40,937 bases of DNA. Source: a virus. Below the pieces are notes generated by a model. It ran no database searches, had not been told where the DNA came from, and saw nothing but the letters and a program-made list of their open reading frames with translations. Positions 5,401-25,701 of this stretch are shown one piece after another (the stretch's first letter is position 1; each line of letters starts with the position of its first letter). Position numbers and translations under genes: made by a program. Location: positions 1 through 40,937 of the IMG/VR virus record IMGVR_UViG_3300028372_000231. One strand, 5' to 3'.

Positions 5401-7177
5401 TCTGGCAGGTGGGTCCACTGACTTGCCGTCCAGTATTGCTCGACAGTTTGAACCCGAGACCGATTACAACGACATGGCTCACAAGGGTTACAGGGCTTCG
5501 GCTGTTGTAGAAGCTAGCGGTGTCCTGACCGAGCCTTACCTGATTTCCGTAGAGGCGACCACTGACGAAGGTTCTGGCCTCACTGTAAATGCGTTCATCG
5601 AGTACGACGGCTCTGGCGCTGTCTGTAGAGTCATAGAGCCAGGGGGCATATCAGACGGAACAGTGATTGGCTCTTTCGCCAATGTAGGCACAGGGGTTCA
5701 AGAATACAGCATCTTGGTTCAAGCTCATGATATAGCAGACGGACACCAACGTGCTAAAGTGATGTTCGTGAGGAAGACCGGTTCGTTCATGTCTGCTAAC
5801 GGATATGACTACCGTGTTGAGTCAGAAGTTGTTGAGGGTGTTGTTCTTGGGGATATAGGGCCACCTGAGAAACCGGGAAGTATCGAGATATCTTCAGGTG
5901 AGAATACCAATGCTGGGACGGCTGAGAGGCTGGTTGTTAAGCAGTTTGGTTGGTCTCCATTATCTCATAGCGGGTACACTCAATCTGATTCTATCCTATC
6001 CCCAGACGGGACAACCATTGTCCAGGGTCGAGATAACGAACACTACCACCCCGGTGACAGATGGAGGCGGTTCGACGACTCTAATCTGTTCGGCTCGGTT
6101 GGGAATCCCTATTATGGCTACAGGATGGCCAGTGTAGAGAGGGAGAACAGGTCGTTCACCTATCATTGGCCAAATGGATTCAGGTTCGACTTCTCTAAGC
6201 GTTACGCTCGTAAAAGAGACCTGTGGTTCTTAGACAGACGGAAGGTGACAAACGTTGGTGACCTAGACATGGGGAAGATCCATGGAATGTACACCACTAT
6301 GTCTGACACTGAGGATGTATTGATTTGGGCGGATGCTCAAGATTCAGACCTGGGGAAGTTCGACGTTGACACATTCATCGTTACGGGTTGCAACATACCG
6401 GAGGTGGATATCATCGTCAAAGACGCAATCGGAGACCCCTGGACTACAATTGGCAAGATCGACCTTCGTAAGTACGACTTCAAGAGGGGTGAATTACAGT
6501 ACACCAGTCGGAACAACAAGGGTGTTATCCATATTGATTCGGCTGATATTGATGAAGGTAGGTTCCAAGAGTTTCAGCACTACCATTATTTCGATGGTTA
6601 CCGTGCCGCAAAGGTAGGTCGCTCAAGTGGTCCGCGCATCTGGCTGGAGGAAGCTGTGGGCATGGGGGATGGTCCACAGGTGCCAACCTATGTCTTCGCC
6701 GACAGGTCTGCTGAAGTTTTAGATTCTGTGGTCTCCCATCGTTTCATCGGTATAAGGTTGAAAGCCTTTGATACTTATGAGGGTTTCTTCAAGCTTCATG
6801 CGTTTGACTTTGGTAGGGTTCGCGAGATCCCATTGCTCTATAACTACGACCGAGGCTCTGGGATGTCTTACTTGGCGGAGTCGGATCCTCATTTTGTTTT
6901 CGATGAGCAACCCTACTCTAAGCCTAGCAGTCGCCTTCAGCGAGAGTTTGAACTTGAGTTCAGTCTTTTTGAAGCTGACATGCTTGCGCGTGTGAAAACT
7001 ACTGCTGCTGATCTATCCCTCAACAGGAAGCCTATCTGGGTTCTCGAAGATAACAAGAGCTACAAGGAAAAGGTGCACCTGTGCTTTGTGAGTGGTGATG
7101 TCGAATGGACACCGCTCGTAGATGAAGATGGCGATTCGTATTACAAGTTGAGTTTTAATCTTAGGAGTTCTGAATGA
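2453..7177 (+). CDS. Giant tail tip / receptor-binding region protein
   Basis: About 1574 residues. Three in-frame ATGs stand at 2441, 2447 and 2453; the last has GGAG 6 nt upstream and is preferred. No single known family is recognised. The sequence is acidic, rich in Gly, Asp, Ser and Thr and beta-strand-like, with no membrane segment. Residues about 80-235 and 1020-1110 resemble jelly-roll carbohydrate-binding or laminin-G-like folds. The C-terminal ~150 residues are more compact and probably dock onto the tail. Position directly after the tape measure and overlap with the next giant gene (ATGA at 7174) place it in the tail-tip complex. Likely role: a structural or adhesin component contacting the host surface. 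The structural class is fairly secure; the exact role is inferred. Confidence 0.65.
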   Translation: MKVDSKRFPKTNIVPGQGSLVEVASQSIVDDSWDTLFLDDGPANIFTSSNVIGGVTVVEDRKFETLYGTASGVVWGAPVSVDIINDRIEMRSSMHINAGPSGDFYDNVNRLTFNDNTDALYAFRVLYERVDGFSRSRIRVEEYGQNTFLDIPKTEWIEFSVVFAGDLTFHIGYRVNREDRFTYVTTSQLPSTYTANPGTVNEEIQNRTTLTGINLDFESSTGTTFTVGAAEFNPVLEGVRCKTFHELPECITKVEDGAVYYVPHAYPGEFNIVLNGIGSHLGLSDQGVLECLDYSTLDDSIKFVTSPVSNLYDDANSQLLCRQFAREGPGNRGNMIANMQCFCDGSAQDGGTTSVVTTEGGSIGVNVGRGHHPRFMLENDGALYGENFDMQRIHDDTSLAAGDDILRLRSTKLSDQSRVYFGVQGVAKGVDEQVLMEFEFEDPTSGGWTGGQWKITGVDNTTDISSANPVTAGPGQVSLKPGVYEYTVENADGGVFVGALVDGNCLGRFTLDDRFIGGWGYGADDVEPEFKIRFEVKQNQGDLITYVFDKCAGQMSKYETATGDVSLVTGSVSAVETVDGNVAVFYQGLTDGDVYGSRSRVIKYKILDVDTGVFSQAYSVNLPESLNFWLPGDWYTHAFDVVQTDDGLDFILSVETDERGFDRLLPDGSTTEEWARYMPFLKGGFFVVSVDKGIESGGFDATDPDSVTQVPLESVDNMHTGELESDTLFSASGRLNSAAPGFIDAGFDIERGETVLSVLSHLRRAPMVVAGKGARWNEVAFPYHFDLKGAYRHGFTETQGEPGTLVQTGEGSPTSAARYTGITSLSASYGSDGMVYSIATCGRSYKDSFHASRDCEIGVIDPEISVDSFIYLDGNLVPADSATQYRFETLPFLCSYEAPDGSSITPISASIKRDDHYLVASFGIGTSGQPIIYQSGHQDTFPFGFPLEEVLLKEADSASGFTSPFTISSNVEYSPEGYQMPTGLAGGSTDLPSSIARQFEPETDYNDMAHKGYRASAVVEASGVLTEPYLISVEATTDEGSGLTVNAFIEYDGSGAVCRVIEPGGISDGTVIGSFANVGTGVQEYSILVQAHDIADGHQRAKVMFVRKTGSFMSANGYDYRVESEVVEGVVLGDIGPPEKPGSIEISSGENTNAGTAERLVVKQFGWSPLSHSGYTQSDSILSPDGTTIVQGRDNEHYHPGDRWRRFDDSNLFGSVGNPYYGYRMASVERENRSFTYHWPNGFRFDFSKRYARKRDLWFLDRRKVTNVGDLDMGKIHGMYTTMSDTEDVLIWADAQDSDLGKFDVDTFIVTGCNIPEVDIIVKDAIGDPWTTIGKIDLRKYDFKRGELQYTSRNNKGVIHIDSADIDEGRFQEFQHYHYFDGYRAAKVGRSSGPRIWLEEAVGMGDGPQVPTYVFADRSAEVLDSVVSHRFIGIRLKAFDTYEGFFKLHAFDFGRVREIPLLYNYDRGSGMSYLAESDPHFVFDEQPYSKPSSRLQREFELEFSLFEADMLARVKTTAADLSLNRKPIWVLEDNKSYKEKVHLCFVSGDVEWTPLVDEDGDSYYKLSFNLRSSE
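4030..4043. repeat. In-gene palindrome copy TGAACCTGAGTTCA
   Basis: Copy of the TGAACYTRRGTTCA family inside the first giant tail gene. It is read in frame as part of V-E-P-E-F-K. Confidence 0.55.
6949..6962. repeat. In-gene palindrome copy TGAACTTGAGTTCA
   Basis: Family copy near the 3' end of the first giant tail gene, read in frame as F-E-L-E-F-S. Confidence 0.55.
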
Positions 7178-10100
7178 TTAGGTACACGTTCAACTATCCC
7201 ATCGAAACCAAGTTGGTGAATGAGGAGGGTTCTTTCGAGGGGCCTCGTTCATTAGACCCACCGGCTGGGATCGATTACGAGGCAAGAGTGGCCAGGGTTG
7301 GCAGCGAGCTTGTCAACGCCTCTCAAGTTAGGCTGTCGCATAAGGACGACTTTGTGAGCGGTGTTCACAGGGTTCGACAGAATCCAACACTGGAGGGGTT
7401 ATTCCCAAGGGCGTTCTCGGAACCGTTCCACCTTGAGTACGCTTACGATACCGGCCCGCTGATTGGGCAAAGTGAGAAAGGTGTTCAGGACTTCCACCCC
7501 TTCGTGGTCAATGCCTTTGAAGGGTCGGACCTGTACTCCAAGAATCTCAAAAACATGAGGGTTACTGAGTACGAAGGCTCTGTCTACATGGTGGGGGAGA
7601 TTGCAGACCCCATGATGCGGGTCCACTTGTACAAGATGGATTCTGACACCCTGGAGTTTAATCTGGTCAAGGTGTTTGACGAGGTTGTTGTTGACGATAG
7701 CACTAGCAATCAGGAAGAGGGTTCCCCTGACCTGTGTGTCCACGACGGGGCGCTGTACGTTGCTTACAGGTCTGCTGACAGGGGAGGGGACTCAAGTTCG
7801 ATTGCGGTCTGGAACTCTGAAGACTTGGTTGACTGGCGACACGATGTCTTCCCTGTGGAGAATACCTTTGGTGCTCTTTTCACCGATTTCCGTTTGAGGA
7901 TGGCGTCGGGACTGGACTCCCTGTGTATCGTCTTCTACGCCACTCGCCAAGTGTATAACCAGTGTGCCATACTTATACAGTTGCGGGACATGAGGTCGAT
8001 GATCTCAACCGATGGGGGAGGGGAGTTCAGATTTAGCCACGATAGCTACTCCTCGTTCAATCGTTCTACGGGCACATCCGAATATACCGAAGCCATAAGA
8101 CACAATGCCCTGTACAACTATTTCATCCCTAGCAACAAGAGGCCGTCTGCACCTGAAGAATACTTCTGCTCAGTTAATTTTGACCTGTATTTTGACGAGG
8201 CGATGGCTAGCTTCGTGGTGGTCAAGGGTGGAGATCCAGATGGGATGCAGGATGGAGCAGGGGACAATAACACAACTTACTTGATGGCTATCAAGACGGT
8301 TGATGGTAGCTTCCTAGACTGGGAACCATGTCTGAATATGAAGACTGATGATATGGTTGCTAGGAGCGACTGGTCTGACGACCGGGACTCCCCTTCTAGG
8401 GAGGTCACGGATGTGTGCGTCGTGCCGGGTGAGACAGTCAGTGACATCTTTGTCACCATGGGTGATGGGCGTCAGGTTGCACACGCCGAGTTCTCATTCG
8501 TAGGTCGCAACCTATTCAAACCGGGTACAACCCGAACTAAGCCTTTTGCGTATGGAAAGAAGTCTCACCCTGAGTATGTCTTTGTGTCCACCTACATGGA
8601 TTCAAGGGCGGCTGGACTGGTGACCACAGGTAACCCAAGTTGGGCGTACGAGTCGGGCCTGACGAATAGTGTAAGCAACCCGTACGCCTACGCTTCTTCT
8701 TGCAGGTGGCGAAACCAGATTGTGACCATTGTGGATATAGATGGCAACAGCGCCAACCCTGACTCCAACTCCAGAAGGTTTATGTCTTTGAAGGCACCAA
8801 TGGGCGCCGTCACGGAACTCTATCAGTACCAGTATGGTTACTGCAGGTACTATGACGGGCTTGAAGACTGGGGATGGGGGTCTCAGGTATTAGGCAGCGG
8901 TTCAACGGGTCGGACGGAGTTCAATGGTGATATCTACAATGTATGCACCATCAATGCCACCAATGATGAAGCCTACTACAACAGCGGGAGCTTCTTTGAG
9001 AAGCTGGGGTCTGACAACCACTTCAAACTGAAGTTCCAATTCCTTTCTGAAGCGTTGCCAGTGGGTACCGGTTCGATTCACTTTCTTGAGGTTTCTCTAC
9101 CGGGCACCGAGGACGCCTACCTACAGTTGAGGCTCTATCAAGATGGAACGGTCTCACTTATTGATGAGTATGGTTCCATTGTTCAAGATGTAGCACAGAC
9201 AACAATCGGGACTCCTCACGAGCTACTGCTTTGCTACCACTTGCCAGTCGGCGGCACCGAGAGCGAACTTGTGGCCTGGAACCGTGCTGTTGGTGAACGA
9301 GACTGGGCGAGTCACACAGTGGTCCCCTATTCTGGTGTATTCAGAGATCGGGGCTATTATCCCGCTCTCACTGGCGAACCAAGAATTAAGCTTGGGGTGT
9401 TTAACTATGGTGGCTTTGGTGATAACGGTCCTATCAGGTTTGGAGTTGGGGACGTTCACGCAAGCACACTTGATGAGTCTTTTGAACCTGGGTTCACAAG
9501 TGTTATCGGCACGACTCGAAGGGGTAGCTCTGAGGGGATTCGTCGATACGGGACAGCTAGCACAGCCGATCCGCTTCAGGTTTACAGCAATAGAATAAGG
9601 CTTCACGATGGGTCGATCATCGAGATTGATGGGGGTCGACTCGATGAGGAAGCTGAGGACGTGTTCAGGTACGGGCACAGTTTAACCAGGAACAGTGCAA
9701 GGAATCTGGTCAACGGCATGGCTGATTCTGTTTACGACTTTACACCGGTTTGGGACTCCAGTCAGGGATACATAGACTTCATCTTCGAGAATGTGGAGAT
9801 GGGGATTTTTGACATGGTGAGTCTGGTGAATATCAGTGGTGTCTACGACTTCACTTTGTTTTGTGGGGAGTACGATCCTGTTACGGGAGGGTTCACCACT
9901 GGGTCTCAGGAAGAGTACAGCATACCCTATCTGGACCTCAATCACGTCTCAACAATCGGTAGAACTGTTGTAGTGGAGGAGACCTTCGATTCGAGTATCC
10001 TCAAGGGGAACTCGGTTATCGCTGTTGACCCTTCCACTTCGCCTGTGACACCGGTGTACCACTATCTTGTGGTCGATAACTATGATGGGATTTTAGAGTT

Positions 10101-23217: not shown

Positions 23218-23290
23218 GGCGTCTGTAGTTCAGTGGAGGGAGCATCGGTGTCTATACCGAGGTCGCGGGTTCGAGTCCCGTCAGACGCCC
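23218..23290 (+). tRNA. tRNA-like gene with 6-nt anticodon loop (Asp- or His-like)
   Basis: Acceptor GCGTCTG pairs with CAGACGC, extended by a G-C pair like the G-1:C73 of tRNA-His. D stem GTTC/GAGC and T arm GCGGG-TTCGAGT-CCCGT are canonical. The anticodon stem TCGGT/ACCGA encloses only six bases (GTCTAT) and the variable loop is 4 nt. The anticodon cannot be assigned: GTC is present but lacks the normal flanking register. No CCA is encoded. The fold is convincing; identity is open. Confidence 0.6.
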
Positions 23291-23375
23291 TAGCATCTGG
23301 GGAAGTTTTAGCTATAGCAAGCTTCGTAGACCTGTCTTAGAACTTCGGTTCATTCAGGATTTATCTCAGATGCTA
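23291..23375 (+). ncRNA. Structured segment closed by TAGCATCTG/CAGATGCTA
   Basis: An 85-nt segment between a tRNA-like gene and the tmRNA, closed by a perfect 9-bp inverted repeat. Inside are GAAC-TTCG-GTTC, a hairpin with a UUCG tetraloop, and the 8-bp palindrome GCTATAGC. The size is tRNA-like but no T-loop consensus is present. RNA function is inferred from structure and location only. Confidence 0.4.
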
Positions 23376-23378
23376 TAC

Positions 23379-23777
23379 GGGGGCGCTCTGGTTTCGACGT
23401 GAGCGCTGAATCCGTACAAGCGTGCAGTGGTGGCCTTTCACACTCTAAACACTGGCAACCGTTCAATTGGCAACGATAAAGCTGAAGTCGTGAATCTCGC
23501 GGATTACCGTGAGTCCACTCAGGAAACTGAGGTTCGCGCAGCCGCATAAGCGGCGGTCCAAGGGAGTTTGCCCGTAGGTGAACTTGGACCTACGACATAC
23601 GGGTTGCGGTTCAAGAATGGGATAATCCCCTATAACCATCTTGAACCTAAGTTCATGCTTAGGGGCACCAGTTCATCCCTGTCTGTGGGGTCGTTCTGGT
23701 GTGAAAACACAGACTATGCACGAAGAAAGTACGTGAGGATCGCATCGCGGACGCGGGTTCGATACCCGCCGCCTCCA
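23379..23777 (+). ncRNA. ssrA: tmRNA (one-piece transfer-messenger RNA)
   Basis: Starts GGGGGCGCTCTGGTTTCGACG, the conserved tmRNA 5' end. It ends with T arm GCGGG-TTCGATA-CCCGC and acceptor CGCCTCC plus discriminator A, which pairs fully (one wobble) with GGGGGCG. The tag frame reads from GGC at 23469 to TAA at 23547-23549, encoding 26 residues that start GNDKAEVV and end EVRAAA, a protease-tag-like C-terminus. tmRNA is charged with alanine, enters stalled ribosomes and tags the truncated product. About 400 nt is the usual one-piece length. The resume codon GGC is unusual (Ala GCA is common), so the precise first codon is less certain than the tag end. CCA is not encoded. Confidence 0.92.
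23642..23655. repeat. Palindrome copy TGAACCTAAGTTCA inside tmRNA
   Basis: Family copy in the pseudoknot-rich 3' half of the tmRNA. Its CCTAAG can instead pair with CTTAGG just downstream, so it may serve tmRNA folding. Confidence 0.5.
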
Positions 23778-23778
23778 T

Positions 23779-23840
23779 TGGAGAGTATGATGATTTTCGG
23801 TTAGCTCATTCGAGCGTGGGTTCGATCCCCACCTCTCCAC
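23779..23840 (+). tRNA. Short tRNA-like gene, apparently lacking the D arm
   Basis: Acceptor TGGAGAG pairs perfectly with CTCTCCA, and the T arm is GTGGG-TTCGATC-CCCAC. Only 62 nt long; it starts 2 nt after the tmRNA. Between acceptor and T arm a GATGA/TCATT stem can enclose a 12-nt loop, leaving no room for a D arm. Alternatively GCTC-ATTC-GAGC forms a small hairpin. The anticodon is not assignable. It could be a degenerate tRNA. Confidence 0.4.
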
Positions 23841-23867
23841 TTAGATTCAATTCGGGCAAGGTCCACC

Positions 23868-23895
23868 TGTTGTACGGCGTCATGACCCGTCATAC
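23868..23895 (+). other. Hairpin with palindromic GTCATGAC loop
   Basis: CTGT/ACAG and ACGG/CCGT helices in the spacer before the next tRNA-like gene enclose a loop containing the self-complementary GTCATGAC. No known RNA family is recognised. Confidence 0.3.
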
Positions 23896-23975
23896 AGACT
23901 GGAGTGTGGAACAGCGAGGATAGGCGGCATGCAGCCTATGTAACCTCGTCGCAGGTTCGAGTCCTGCCCGGACTA
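23896..23975 (+). tRNA. tRNA-like gene with enlarged anticodon region
   Basis: T arm GCAGG-TTCGAGT-CCTGC and acceptor AGACTGG/CCGGACT (one A-A mismatch, one wobble), 80 nt. Where the anticodon arm should be, CGAGG/CCTCG encloses 24 nt containing the helix ATAGGC/GCCTAT with the 8-nt loop GGCATGCA. The D region is reduced to about 10 nt. No normal 7-nt anticodon loop can be drawn, so no amino acid is assigned. Confidence 0.45.
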
Positions 23976-24004
23976 TGGCTTCGGCCAACAAGCAGGCGGA
24001 ACTG

Positions 24005-24089
24005 ACAGCTAAATCCGTCACCCAGGTGTAAAACACAGGTGGTACAAGTACAGCCTGTGACATCGCAAACCGGGACAATCATTAGCTGT
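24005..24089 (+). ncRNA. Structured segment closed by ACAGCTAA/TTAGCTGT
   Basis: An 85-nt segment between two tRNA-like genes with a perfect 8-bp closing repeat. Inside, GTCAC pairs with GTGAC and ACAGG with CCTGT. No T-loop consensus is present. It may be an unrecognised small RNA or a decayed tRNA. Confidence 0.4.
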
Positions 24090-24093
24090 GGTA

Positions 24094-24182
24094 AAGAGAG
24101 GGCATACAGGCTCGCCGGGTAAAGCGTGACGTTTCATCTGTGTAGACTCGACACGCGAGCGGTTCAAATCCGCACTCTCTAC
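24094..24182 (+). tRNA. tRNA-like gene of class II length
   Basis: T loop TTCAAAT (as in Ser/Leu tRNAs) on stem GCGG/CCGC, with acceptor AAGAGAG pairing six of seven bases with CTCTCTA. The 89-nt length suits a long-variable-arm tRNA. A D-like arm GCT/AGC with GGGTAA in the loop is possible. GCGTG/CACGC encloses a 23-nt segment instead of a normal anticodon arm. Identity is not assignable. Confidence 0.42.
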
Positions 24183-24208
24183 TGGTCGAAAGGCCAACAG
24201 GCGGCGCG

Positions 24209-24273
24209 ATACCAATGAGCCGGGTGATATACCTCATGCTGTACACATGGGTGAATTCACCACAACATGGTAT
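24209..24273 (+). ncRNA. tRNA-Tyr-like structured segment without T-loop consensus
   Basis: Closed by ATACCA/TGGTAT. It contains a good anticodon arm: TCATG and CATGG around CTGTACA, with U33 and anticodon GTA (Tyr). The place of the T arm is taken by the palindrome GGTGAATTCACC, so the universal T loop is missing. It could be a decayed tRNA-Tyr or another RNA. Confidence 0.35.
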
Positions 24274-24292
24274 GACAATCGGAGAGACGATT

Positions 24293-24399
24293 GGCAAATT
24301 CAGTCTGGACTGAAAGCATCGGGTCGACACGGTGCGAGTAAGCATGGCCAAGACTTCCCCTTATATGGGGCGACATCGGTTCGAGTCCGGTATTTGCTA
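24293..24399 (+). tRNA. tRNA-like gene with enlarged D loop (possibly Ile-TAT)
   Basis: Acceptor GGCAAAT/ATTTGCT, discriminator A, T arm ATCGG-TTCGAGT-CCGGT. D stem AGTC (24302) pairs with GACT (24352), but the D loop is 46 nt and holds the hairpin GCATCG/CGGTGC with 8-nt loop GGTCGACA. The anticodon stem CCCC/GGGG encloses six bases (TTATAT), or CTTATAT if the last C is unpaired, giving anticodon TAT after U33. Length is 107 nt. Confidence 0.5.
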
Positions 24400-24401
24400 T
24401 T

Positions 24402-24514
24402 GACCGTAGACGAGTAAGAAACCCATTCTATTAAGTTGTTAAATTGTGATTGGTGTCACTGTGACAATGAAGATTGGTTGGTATGTTGGAGCATGCTTCC
24501 GAACGTCTACGGTC
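24402..24514 (+). ncRNA. Structured segment closed by an 11-bp perfect stem
   Basis: GACCGTAGACG at 24402 and CGTCTACGGTC at 24504 are exact complements enclosing 91 nt. It is the strongest inverted repeat in the cluster and exactly fills the gap between two tRNA-like genes. Internal elements are TGTCA-CTG-TGACA and GGA-GCATGC-TTCC. It matches no RNA family known to me. It is a good candidate for an independent small RNA or a processing element. Confidence 0.5.
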
Positions 24515-24518
24515 TTAT

Positions 24519-24626
24519 GAAGTGTGTGGCAGAGCGGTTTAATGCAGAGGCAACATGTAAGTGGGTGTAGCGTTTGAAGTGTTGCACGAGTAAACCCACC
24601 GAGGGTTCAAATCCCTCCACACTTCT
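24519..24626 (+). tRNA. tRNA-Ser-like gene (TGA) with inserted bases
   Basis: Acceptor GAAGTGTG/CACACTTC, D arm GCA-GAGCGGTTTAA-TGC and T arm GAGGG-TTCAAAT-CCCTC match bacterial tRNA-Ser. TTTGAAG gives U33, anticodon TGA and A37 (serine, UCA). The expected anticodon stem CAACA/TGTTG encloses 24 nt, 17 more than normal; an alternative weak stem TAGCG/TGTTG needs the extra bases between D and anticodon arms. The long-variable region lacks its own hairpin but can pair with the extra bases (GTGGGT with ACCCAC). Length is 108 nt. Confidence 0.55.
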
Positions 24627-24632
24627 TGAATT

Positions 24633-24704
24633 AAGCCGGTGGTGTAACTGGAAACATCAGGGATTCCAAATCCCTGGCTTCGGGTTCGATCCCCGGTCGG
24701 CTTG
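24633..24704 (+). tRNA. tRNA-Trp (anticodon CCA)
   Basis: A fully canonical 72-nt cloverleaf: acceptor AAGCCGG/TCGGCTT, D stem GTGT/ACAT, anticodon arm AGGGA-TTCCAAA-TCCCT, 4-nt variable loop, T arm TCGGG-TTCGATC-CCCGG, discriminator G. U33, A37 and G73 all fit tRNA-Trp. No CCA is encoded, so the end would be added by nucleotidyltransferase. Confidence 0.93.
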
Positions 24705-24730
24705 TGTCAAACCATAACAAAGGAAGTATC

Positions 24731-24919
24731 ATGTCTATCACCAATCCAATCCACCCCGCAAATCCAGCGAGTCCGCTGAACCCGTCCAACCAACCCGACA
24801 CATCCAGTATTGACCCCTCTTCACCAATCGGGATGGTCTTGCTCGTGGGCTACATTGCCACCTGCATTGTCGCCATAGTAGCGATGGGGTACATTGTGTG
24901 GGCTGAATTTAAACACTGA
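24731..24919 (+). CDS. Small membrane protein within the RNA cluster
   Basis: 62 residues from ATG 24731, chosen because AAAGGAAG stands 4-5 nt upstream; the in-frame ATG at 24704 overlaps the tRNA-Trp 3' end. The N-terminal ~32 residues are rich in Pro, Asn and Ser (NPIHPANPASPLNPSNQ) and probably unstructured. Residues about 35-57 are one hydrophobic helix (MVLLVGYIATCIVAIVAMGY). No family is recognised. The strong ribosome binding site makes it a likely real gene despite lying between tRNA genes. Confidence 0.65.
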   Translation: MSITNPIHPANPASPLNPSNQPDTSSIDPSSPIGMVLLVGYIATCIVAIVAMGYIVWAEFKH

Positions 24920-24925
24920 AAACAC

Positions 24926-24997
24926 GGCAGGTTAGTTCAACAGGTAGAACGCAAGACCGATAATCTTGTAACACAGGTTCGAGTCCTGTACCTGCTA
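24926..24997 (+). tRNA. tRNA-Ile (anticodon GAT) with C33
   Basis: Complete 72-nt cloverleaf: acceptor GGCAGGT/ACCTGCT, D arm GTTC/GAAC with AACAGGTA loop, anticodon arm CAAGA-CCGATAA-TCTTG, T arm ACAGG-TTCGAGT-CCTGT, discriminator A. The anticodon is GAT and A73 fits Ile. Position 33 is C instead of the near-universal U. No CCA is encoded. Confidence 0.87.
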
Positions 24998-25043
24998 CTT
25001 GGCACGCCTCGCGTGCTGGGCCGAGTTTTGACGGCCAGTTGAA

Positions 25044-25138
25044 GCATCCACAAGCTCCCTTGGTGTCTATCATCTGAAATGGTGACAAACCCTCGCGCCA
25101 ATGGAGGTCAATCGACGGTCGAATAGCCGGTGGATAGC
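25044..25138 (+). ncRNA. Structured segment closed by GCATCCAC/GTGGATAGC
   Basis: 95 nt closed by 8 bp with one bulged A. It contains TCATC/GGTGA around TGAAAT, which reads as U33 plus anticodon GAA (Phe) plus A37 in a 6-nt loop. A T-loop-like TCGAATA lies near the 3' side but is one base short of consensus. It is possibly a degraded tRNA-Phe. Confidence 0.35.
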
Positions 25139-25146
25139 AGAGGTAT

Positions 25147-25212
25147 GTCAGAAGCGCATGTGGCCACACGGTAGCGATGCTGCGGCATAGGGTTCGATCC
25201 CCTCTTCTGGCA
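25147..25212 (+). tRNA. Short tRNA-like gene without a normal anticodon arm
   Basis: Acceptor GTCAGAA/TTCTGGC (one wobble), discriminator A, T arm AGGG-TTCGATC-CCCT. Only 66 nt. GCAT/ATGC encloses a 17-nt loop containing the palindrome TGGCCA, leaving 7 nt before the T arm, so either the D or the anticodon arm is missing. It is probably non-canonical or decayed. Confidence 0.4.
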
Positions 25213-25240
25213 CTGTATTAAGATTTCTGATGAGGCAGAC

Positions 25241-25516
25241 ATGTTTGACGTTGTGAATGCTATCTTTGAATGCGGCGGCGCAGTCATCCTTTGGATGAAT
25301 GTGCACCGTCTCTATCAAGATAAGAAAGTAAGTGGTGTTAGTATTGCTCCGTTCGTGTTTTACGCGGCATGGGGCATCTGGAATCCATTCTACTATCAGA
25401 ATCTTGGCCAGACTCTTTCAGCGATTGCCGGAATTGGCGTCCTGTTGGCCAACCTCGCGTGGTTGGCGTTGTTCTTCTGGTATAAGTTCAACCCACCAGA
25501 GTGTGAAGAGTCTTAA
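25241..25516 (+). CDS. PQ-loop / SemiSWEET-like small membrane protein
   Basis: 91 residues with three predicted transmembrane helices (about 5-22, 34-52 and 60-82) and a Trp- and Tyr-rich middle. The segment RLYQDKKVSGVSIAPF resembles the helix 1-2 connection of SemiSWEET/PQ-loop proteins, and three helices is the SemiSWEET size. Bacterial SemiSWEETs dimerise to carry sugars, but no sugar-binding residue set was verified here. ATG 25241 follows GAGG. It lies alone between tRNA-like genes. Family call moderate, function unknown. Confidence 0.62.
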   Translation: MFDVVNAIFECGGAVILWMNVHRLYQDKKVSGVSIAPFVFYAAWGIWNPFYYQNLGQTLSAIAGIGVLLANLAWLALFFWYKFNPPECEES

Positions 25517-25521
25517 TCGAC

Positions 25522-25636
25522 GGCGTGTTCCCAAGTGAAGCCTGCTCACAGTGCGCAATGTGAATAGGGAGTAACTTCGGAGGGGAGTGCTCGGTTTGGC
25601 CACTGAGTTAAGGAGGTTCGAGTCCTACTCACGCCA
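25522..25636 (+). tRNA. tRNA-like gene with enlarged D loop
   Basis: Acceptor GGCGTG/CACGCC, discriminator A, T arm GGAGG-TTCGAGT-CCTAC (one mismatch). The opening TTCCCAAGTG and later AGGGAG look like a class II D arm, but the loop is interrupted by the hairpin TCACA/TGTGA with 8-nt loop GTGCGCAA. CTCGGT/ACTGAG encloses six bases (TTGGCC) at the anticodon position, followed by a 4-nt variable loop. 115 nt in all; identity is not assignable. Confidence 0.45.
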
Positions 25637-25674
25637 CTTATAGCCTAAGTCCCAAGGGATATGGCTACTGATCG

Positions 25675-25701
25675 GCACCCGAAAGGGTGCAATTTTATTT
25701 T
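25675..25701 (+). terminator. Intrinsic terminator of the RNA cluster
   Basis: GCACCC pairs with GGGTGC around a GAAA tetraloop, followed by a T-rich tract (AATTTTATTTT). It closes the tRNA/tmRNA cluster. Confidence 0.9.

Follow-up and report, generated by a model that had tools for sequence, protein, structure and literature searches.

A phage tRNA cluster dominated by tRNA-like elements with an intact acceptor–T half and abnormal interiors

We analysed positions 1–40,937 of the IMG/VR virus record IMGVR_UViG_3300028372_000231, a 41-kb linear fragment of that record (the window, 40,937 nucleotides (nt) in full). On its + strand, between a YfbR-like gene and an open reading frame (ORF) of 135 amino acids (aa), lies a 2.4-kb cluster of transfer RNA (tRNA)-like genes. 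On balance, this cluster probably combines one transfer-messenger RNA (tmRNA) and two or three ordinary tRNAs with some seven tRNA-like RNAs that are stable, do not decode and are akin to RNA1 and RNA2 of phage T5 and to species 1 of phage T4.

Seven elements with an intact acceptor–T half

We scanned positions 23,219–25,637 for acceptor strands that are preceded by a T arm and have an upstream partner. We observed 11 T arms within the cluster, one of them belonging to the tmRNA; all are on the + strand, and each of the 10 non-tmRNA T arms had an acceptor partner of 6–7 pairs (8 in the element starting at 24519). First-order random sequence of the length of the whole window gave 0–1 such elements, against 10 plus the tmRNA here; the abnormal cluster is not an artefact. 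The 10 elements comprise two normal tRNAs (Trp and Ile), one tRNA with a 6-nt anticodon loop (23219) and seven abnormal elements, which are listed here and named below by their start positions:

23779–23840, + strand: acceptor 7/7, T arm 5/5, 30-nt interior (scan, folding)
23896–23975, + strand: acceptor 6/7, T arm 5/5, A73, long hairpin at the place of the anticodon arm (scan)
24094–24182, + strand: acceptor 6/7, T arm 4/5, 57-nt interior without a canonical anticodon arm (scan, excision test)
24293–24399, + strand: acceptor 7/7, T arm 5/5, A73, D-loop insert of ~35 nt (scan, excision test)
24519–24626, + strand: 8-base-pair (bp) acceptor, type-II D arm, T arm 5/5, rearranged middle (ARAGORN excision score 118.5)
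25147–25212, + strand: acceptor 7/7, T arm 4/5, A73, 34-nt interior (scan, folding)
25522–25636, + strand: acceptor 6/7, T arm 4/5, A73, 8-nt loop TTTGGCCA at the anticodon position (scan, excision test)

An earlier note, made from the sequence, had described these seven elements as retaining the T arm and a complementary acceptor, and this was borne out for all of them: the T arm has 4–5 pairs and the acceptor 6–7 (8 in 24519), on the strand of the cluster. All seven combine a T arm beside an acceptor-like stem, either the lack of a canonical anticodon arm or a large insert, and a position in a same-strand phage tRNA cluster. At least four of the seven (23896, 24293, 25147 and 25522) carry A73 after the acceptor, a feature that they share with the normal tRNA-Ile.

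With default settings, ARAGORN called only the tmRNA, tRNA-Trp, tRNA-Ile and an ambiguous tRNA at 23219, and Infernal at the gathering score gave the same calls. Only Trp and Ile pass as canonical cloverleaves with a 7-nt anticodon loop, in agreement with the earlier note, which had taken these two neighbours to be normal. The seven abnormal elements all fail in default ARAGORN; the single recovery by Infernal was 24,520–24,625 in the single-genome search, at 35.6 bits, just above the tRNA cut-off. When introns were allowed, the sole addition by ARAGORN was a poor model for 24519, and its intron and mitochondrial modes gave no convincing additional tRNAs.

The interiors depart from the cloverleaf in several ways. 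Those of 23779 and 25147 (30 and 34 nt) cannot accommodate a D arm together with an anticodon arm; an arm is indeed missing, as the earlier note had proposed, but the elements can equally be read as having kept the D arm and lost the anticodon arm instead of the reverse. The enlarged loops described in place of the anticodon loop can be drawn, with 12 nt in 23779, 24 nt in 23896, 17 nt in 24094, 24 nt in 24519 and 17 nt in 25147, but several of them are not the minimum-energy fold. For 23779, folding prefers a GCTC/GAGC pairing over the drawing with the 12-nt loop, and the lowest-energy fold of 24519 has an extended arm whose terminal loop, TTTGAAG, is of the normal 7 nt. In 23896, whose acceptor pairing reads AGACTGG/CCGGACT, the hairpin at the anticodon-arm place is CGAGG-ATAGGC-(GGCATGCA)-GCCTAT-GTAA-CCTCG. 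The D-side hairpin inserts noted in 24293 and 25522 are real features, the latter being a structured insert of ~50 nt, and the anticodon loop of 24293 is readable as CTTATAT (Ile-UAU).

We searched for hidden parent tRNAs by deleting every possible single stretch from an element, scoring the remainder with ARAGORN and comparing it with shuffled interiors. Removal of ~20 nt between the D and anticodon arms turned 24519 into a tRNA-Ser(UGA) with a score of 118.5, and none of 150 shuffles did as well. Without its insert, 24293 became a tRNA-Ile(UAU) with a score of 110.4, which 3 of 150 shuffles equalled. No single excision made 23896, 24094 or 25522 better than their shuffles (72, 64 and 54 of 150, respectively). 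Thus, the suggestion that these are tRNAs with small insertions is supported for 24519 and 24293 and not supported for the other three. All but these two, five of the seven elements, are without a recoverable decoding arm.

Palindromic hairpins in three interiors

The interiors of 23896, 24293 and 25522 each contain a hairpin with a 5–6-bp stem, whose 8-nt loop reads G-[6-nt palindrome]-A:

23920–23943, + strand: kissing-loop-like hairpin in 23896, loop G-GCATGC-A, then GTAA
24316–24341, + strand: kissing-loop-like hairpin in the insert of 24293, loop G-GTCGAC-A, then GAGTAA
25546–25574, + strand: kissing-loop-like hairpin in the insert of 25522, loop G-TGCGCA-A, then ATAGG-GAGTAA

We counted hairpins having an 8-nt loop, a purine on both sides of a 6-nt palindrome and a stem of at least 5 pairs. 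The region has three, as compared with a mean of 0.084 in random sequence, and none of 500 random sets reached three; the pattern was spotted after looking, so these enrichment figures are optimistic. Elsewhere in the window the + strand lacks such hairpins and the − strand has a single one; other loci, amounting to 3.05 million strand-bases, have 0.086 per region length (2611 nt). When all minimum-energy hairpin loops were considered, palindromes were weakly enriched (3/26 versus 11/360 in the rest of the window); the signal sits in the specific purine-palindrome-purine form of 8 nt.

The shape of these loops is like that of the retroviral dimer-initiation kissing loop. All three hairpins have the stable stem and the purine-flanked 6-nt palindromic loop of that type, which is a matter of resemblance only. 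As free duplexes, the loops would pair with themselves at −10.3 to −10.8 kcal/mol and with one another at −2.5 to −4.6 kcal/mol. Strong self-pairing together with poor cross-pairing is the property expected of specific homodimers, and the RNAs of 23896, 24293 and 25522 may thus dimerize, as judged from their loops. We also entertain, as a possible but doubtful extension, that they form an orthogonal set: each would homodimerize through its own palindrome (GCAUGC, GUCGAC and UGCGCA, respectively), the tRNA top half would serve as a module for processing and protein recognition, and the dimer would offer two acceptor–T ends, a set distance apart, to a protein of the host or the phage.

The sequence CGAGTAA occurs three times in the cluster (24,335–24,341, 24,411–24,417 and 24,587–24,593) and is absent from the remaining + strand of the window; in each case it stands just 3′ of a predicted stem strand. 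GAGTAA is also found at 25,569. In 24293 and 25522 an opposing GAA could form a loop-E motif with CGAGTAA/GAGTAA, but as the GAA is present in these two only, such a motif was not adopted as the explanation.

Counterparts in other phages and the rest of the cluster

The annotation of T5 (AY543070) lists, in its tRNA cluster, RNA1 and RNA2 as tRNA-like stable RNAs with unknown functions and RNA3 as putatively tRNA-like, along with four other stable RNAs; that of T4 lists rnaC and rnaD as species 1 and 2. The T4 RNAs, RNAC and RNAD, are expressed late, as confirmed by Northern blot, and their function is unknown (PMC9697503). A scan like that of the cluster gave T5 RNA2 a 7-bp acceptor, a D arm, a T arm and an 89-nt interior, and T4 rnaC a perfect T arm adjoining a terminal stem. 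Matches were found in 435 phage records for the RNAIV–RNA2 stretch of T5 and in 714 for rnaC. We aligned seven divergent members for each of T5 RNA2 and T4 rnaC and observed two-sided pair changes in the acceptor, D and T stems of the former and in the terminal and T stems of the latter; the covariation scores of these stems exceeded all shuffles and slid controls. Rfam has no family for either RNA.

Like the elements described here, T5 RNA1 and RNA2 keep the acceptor and T arm, have an enlarged interior and lie in a tRNA cluster with other structured stable RNAs. In the excision test RNA1 behaved like 24519 (2/60, Leu-UAA), so that its Leu(UAA) origin parallels the Ser(UGA) origin of the latter, and RNA2 behaved like the unrecoverable elements (10/60). 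In architecture, the window elements match both kinds of T5 RNA, the RNA1-like and the RNA2-like. T5 differs in having only two or three such RNAs among more than 20 tRNAs, as against 7 of 10 here, and a search of its cluster did not find the purine-[palindrome]-purine hairpin. T4 rnaC resembles our elements in its T arm beside a terminal stem, the absence of a recognised anticodon arm, its place in a tRNA cluster and its compensatory changes; it differs in its length of 139 nt, two U-U mismatches in the terminal stem and a different interior. A further likeness is to tmRNA, in which a tRNA top half is combined with a replaced anticodon arm, and one tmRNA lies near the head of the cluster. T5 RNA2 (positions 6960–7084 on the − strand of L156, the phage T5 entry) and its relatives have a second T-arm-like hairpin inside the interior, CTCG-TTCGATT-CGAG, which in Pectobacterium phage My1 reads TACGG-TTCAATT-CCGTA.

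GOLLD and ROOL are phage RNAs that often lie near tRNA islands and form homo-oligomers through kissing loops, some of them palindromic (PMC12286853). They differ from the cluster elements in being much larger, and neither had an Rfam match in the window.

Two of the six spacers between the elements also fold as closed domains:

23292–23374, + strand: structured spacer closed by AGCATCTGGGG/TCTCAGATGCT (fold z −3.9 and −4.8)
24402–24514, + strand: structured spacer, three internal hairpins within an 11-bp closing stem GACCGTAGACG/CGTCTACGGTC (fold z −4.6)

The 11-pair end stem of the former was matched by 0.7% of shuffles (p 0.007) and that of the latter by none of 300, while the closed stems of the other four spacers were not clearly beyond shuffles. 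RNAIII and RNA2H of T5, stable RNAs that are without a T arm, have a similar end-to-end stem of 10–12 bp (p 0.013 each) and no visible sequence similarity to the two spacers. From their folds, these spacers may represent further stable RNAs.

We asked how common such elements are in a comparison set of 120 other viral stretches carrying a tmRNA 3′ end (1.02 Mb). These held 102 elements with perfect T and acceptor stems, of which ARAGORN called 94 and missed 8; hence tRNA finders miss some phage tRNA-like genes. The eight uncalled elements are in contigs L130, L051, L080 and L094, and one of them resembles an ordinary tRNA-Ser. Under the same strict rule the window has six elements, three of them uncalled (23779, 24293 and 24519). 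Uncalled tRNA-like elements are thus not confined to this phage but are concentrated in it. The 19.8-kb contig L130 carries, between 2282 and 14,678, a tmRNA, 26 ARAGORN tRNAs and several elements that have perfect T and acceptor stems but were not called; in one of these (8075–8196) an anticodon stem of 5 bp encloses a loop of ~40 nt. Default ARAGORN missed two tRNAs with very long variable arms (L094 7403–7502 and L051 830–929), one being an amber tRNA (anticodon CUA) from a phage contig of 332 kb and the other reading Ile(UAU); two anticodon arms were considered for both and rejected in favour of the long variable arms.

The remaining features of the cluster are as follows:

23219–23290, + strand: tRNA with full acceptor, D and T arms and a 6-nt anticodon loop GTCTAT (ARAGORN 'tRNA-???'; Rfam tRNA 46.4 bits; drawn cloverleaf)
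23379–23780, + strand: tmRNA with a predicted 26-residue tag GNDKAEVVNLADYRESTQETEVRAAA (ARAGORN; Rfam RF00023, 124.8 bits)
24632–24705, + strand: normal tRNA-Trp (CCA) (ARAGORN, Rfam)
24926–24998, + strand: normal tRNA-Ile (GAT) (ARAGORN, Rfam)
25675–25698, + strand: terminator-like hairpin with a T-rich tail after the cluster (consensus match only)

The 6-nt anticodon loop of 23219 is a further oddity, outside the interval that the earlier note covered. The phage-borne tmRNA directly abuts the first abnormal element, 23779; no further tmRNA was found above the Rfam cut-off or by default ARAGORN. A match to YrlA, the bacterial Y RNA (RF02553), spanning the tmRNA end and 23779, was rejected as being at chance level (22.9 bits against a cut-off of 69), as were a permuted tmRNA and other weak Rfam matches. 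Promoter matches were also at chance level. Two short hydrophobic ORFs lie inside the cluster (25,241–25,516 and 24,731–24,919; 91 and 62 aa), with no convincing family match in Pfam or PHROGs. Elsewhere the window encodes large tail-region proteins, a helicase, a DnaB-like helicase, a primase, DnaE, a UvsX-like recombinase, guanylate kinase and RuvC.

Proposed use and rival explanations

The acceptor–T half is the part of a tRNA on which RNase P, 3′ processing and CCA addition operate. We propose that the seven RNAs would be cut from a common transcript, and that the retained acceptor–T half, in several cases with a D arm, would allow excision by RNase P and a 3′ processing enzyme, receipt of CCA and stability. 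The interior, freed from decoding, would carry other hairpins that do the work. Two elements, 24293 and 24519, still reveal their parents (Ile-UAU and Ser-UGA), as T5 RNA1 does its Leu-UAA parent. In 23896, 24293 and 25522 the palindromic loop would pair two copies of the same RNA, and the RNAs would engage proteins recognising tRNA ends, as competitor or scaffold, three of them as dimers. Processing, stability and dimerization belong to this proposal, as does the likely use of the RNAs towards proteins binding the elbow or the acceptor end of tRNAs. The non-decoding reading itself starts from what was observed directly: the architecture, its non-randomness, the two tRNA parents and the conservation of the T4 and T5 counterparts.

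Several points weigh against this reading. The transcription and stability of the seven RNAs are presumed, and the likeness to the T4 and T5 RNAs is one of architecture, with no sequence match. Searches with the YfbR-like, UvsX-like and DnaB-like proteins gave no relatives among viral contigs, blastn against phage records gave no match, and the DnaE relatives are only 22–37% identical, on stretches sharing almost no other window gene. Since no close relative of the phage was found, selection on these RNAs is likewise something that we infer. In addition, the scanner demands intact T arms and acceptors, and strongly decayed copies would escape it.

The last point bears on the view, also raised in the earlier note, that these are decaying tRNAs. 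The phage would have acquired the genes and be in the course of losing them, their odd interiors being deletions and insertions. Turnover of phage tRNA sets is quick, 24519 and 24293 clearly come from tRNA-Ser and tRNA-Ile, and 23779 and 25147 are shortened. However, the T-loop motifs of the region are bimodal, ten with 4–5 stem pairs, four with 0–2 and none with 3, and every intact T arm retains its acceptor partner of 6–7 pairs. Together with A73, this bimodality is the pattern expected from maintenance of the tRNA top half, although it is not proof. The lack of half-decayed copies argues against simple decay, which should not leave the same 12 pairs intact seven times while deleting the decoding arm, and the T4 and T5 counterparts are conserved rather than decaying. 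We therefore regard decay as unlikely. A reading as working tRNAs whose inserts, introns or expanded loops, are removed or tolerated would suit 24519 and 24293, the latter with its canonical CTTATAT loop, as both beat their shuffles on excision. This is less probable still for the cluster as a whole, since 23896, 24094 and 25522 gain nothing from excision, 23779 and 25147 are too short for both arms, and the inserts are at different places and match no intron family.

The elements alternate with the two small ORFs and with spacers, two of them closed domains, and the acceptor–T minihelices could be mainly cutting marks that free mRNAs and structured spacers (tRNA punctuation). A bare minihelix would be enough for this, and the elaborate interiors and palindromic loops would be unaccounted for, which makes such a role improbable. 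The idea of decoys absorbing host anticodon-cutting nucleases draws on phage tRNAs used against tRNA-targeting defences, as described in PMC10264068 and PMC11555353. The case made in PMC10264068 is that substitutions render working tRNAs insensitive, and the words 'insertion' and 'decoy' are absent from its text. Decoys fit poorly because most of the abnormal elements are without the 7-nt anticodon loop, the part that such enzymes cut, and we consider this very improbable indeed.

The kind of RNA proposed here is already known, as the tRNA-like stable RNAs of T4 and T5; the density of the elements and their palindromic hairpins are new. For decades, the T4 and T5 RNAs have been on record without an assigned function. 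A cluster that is mostly tRNA-like and carries a recurring palindromic hairpin offers a testable handle on dimerization, on processing and CCA-tailing, and on the protein partner of such RNAs.

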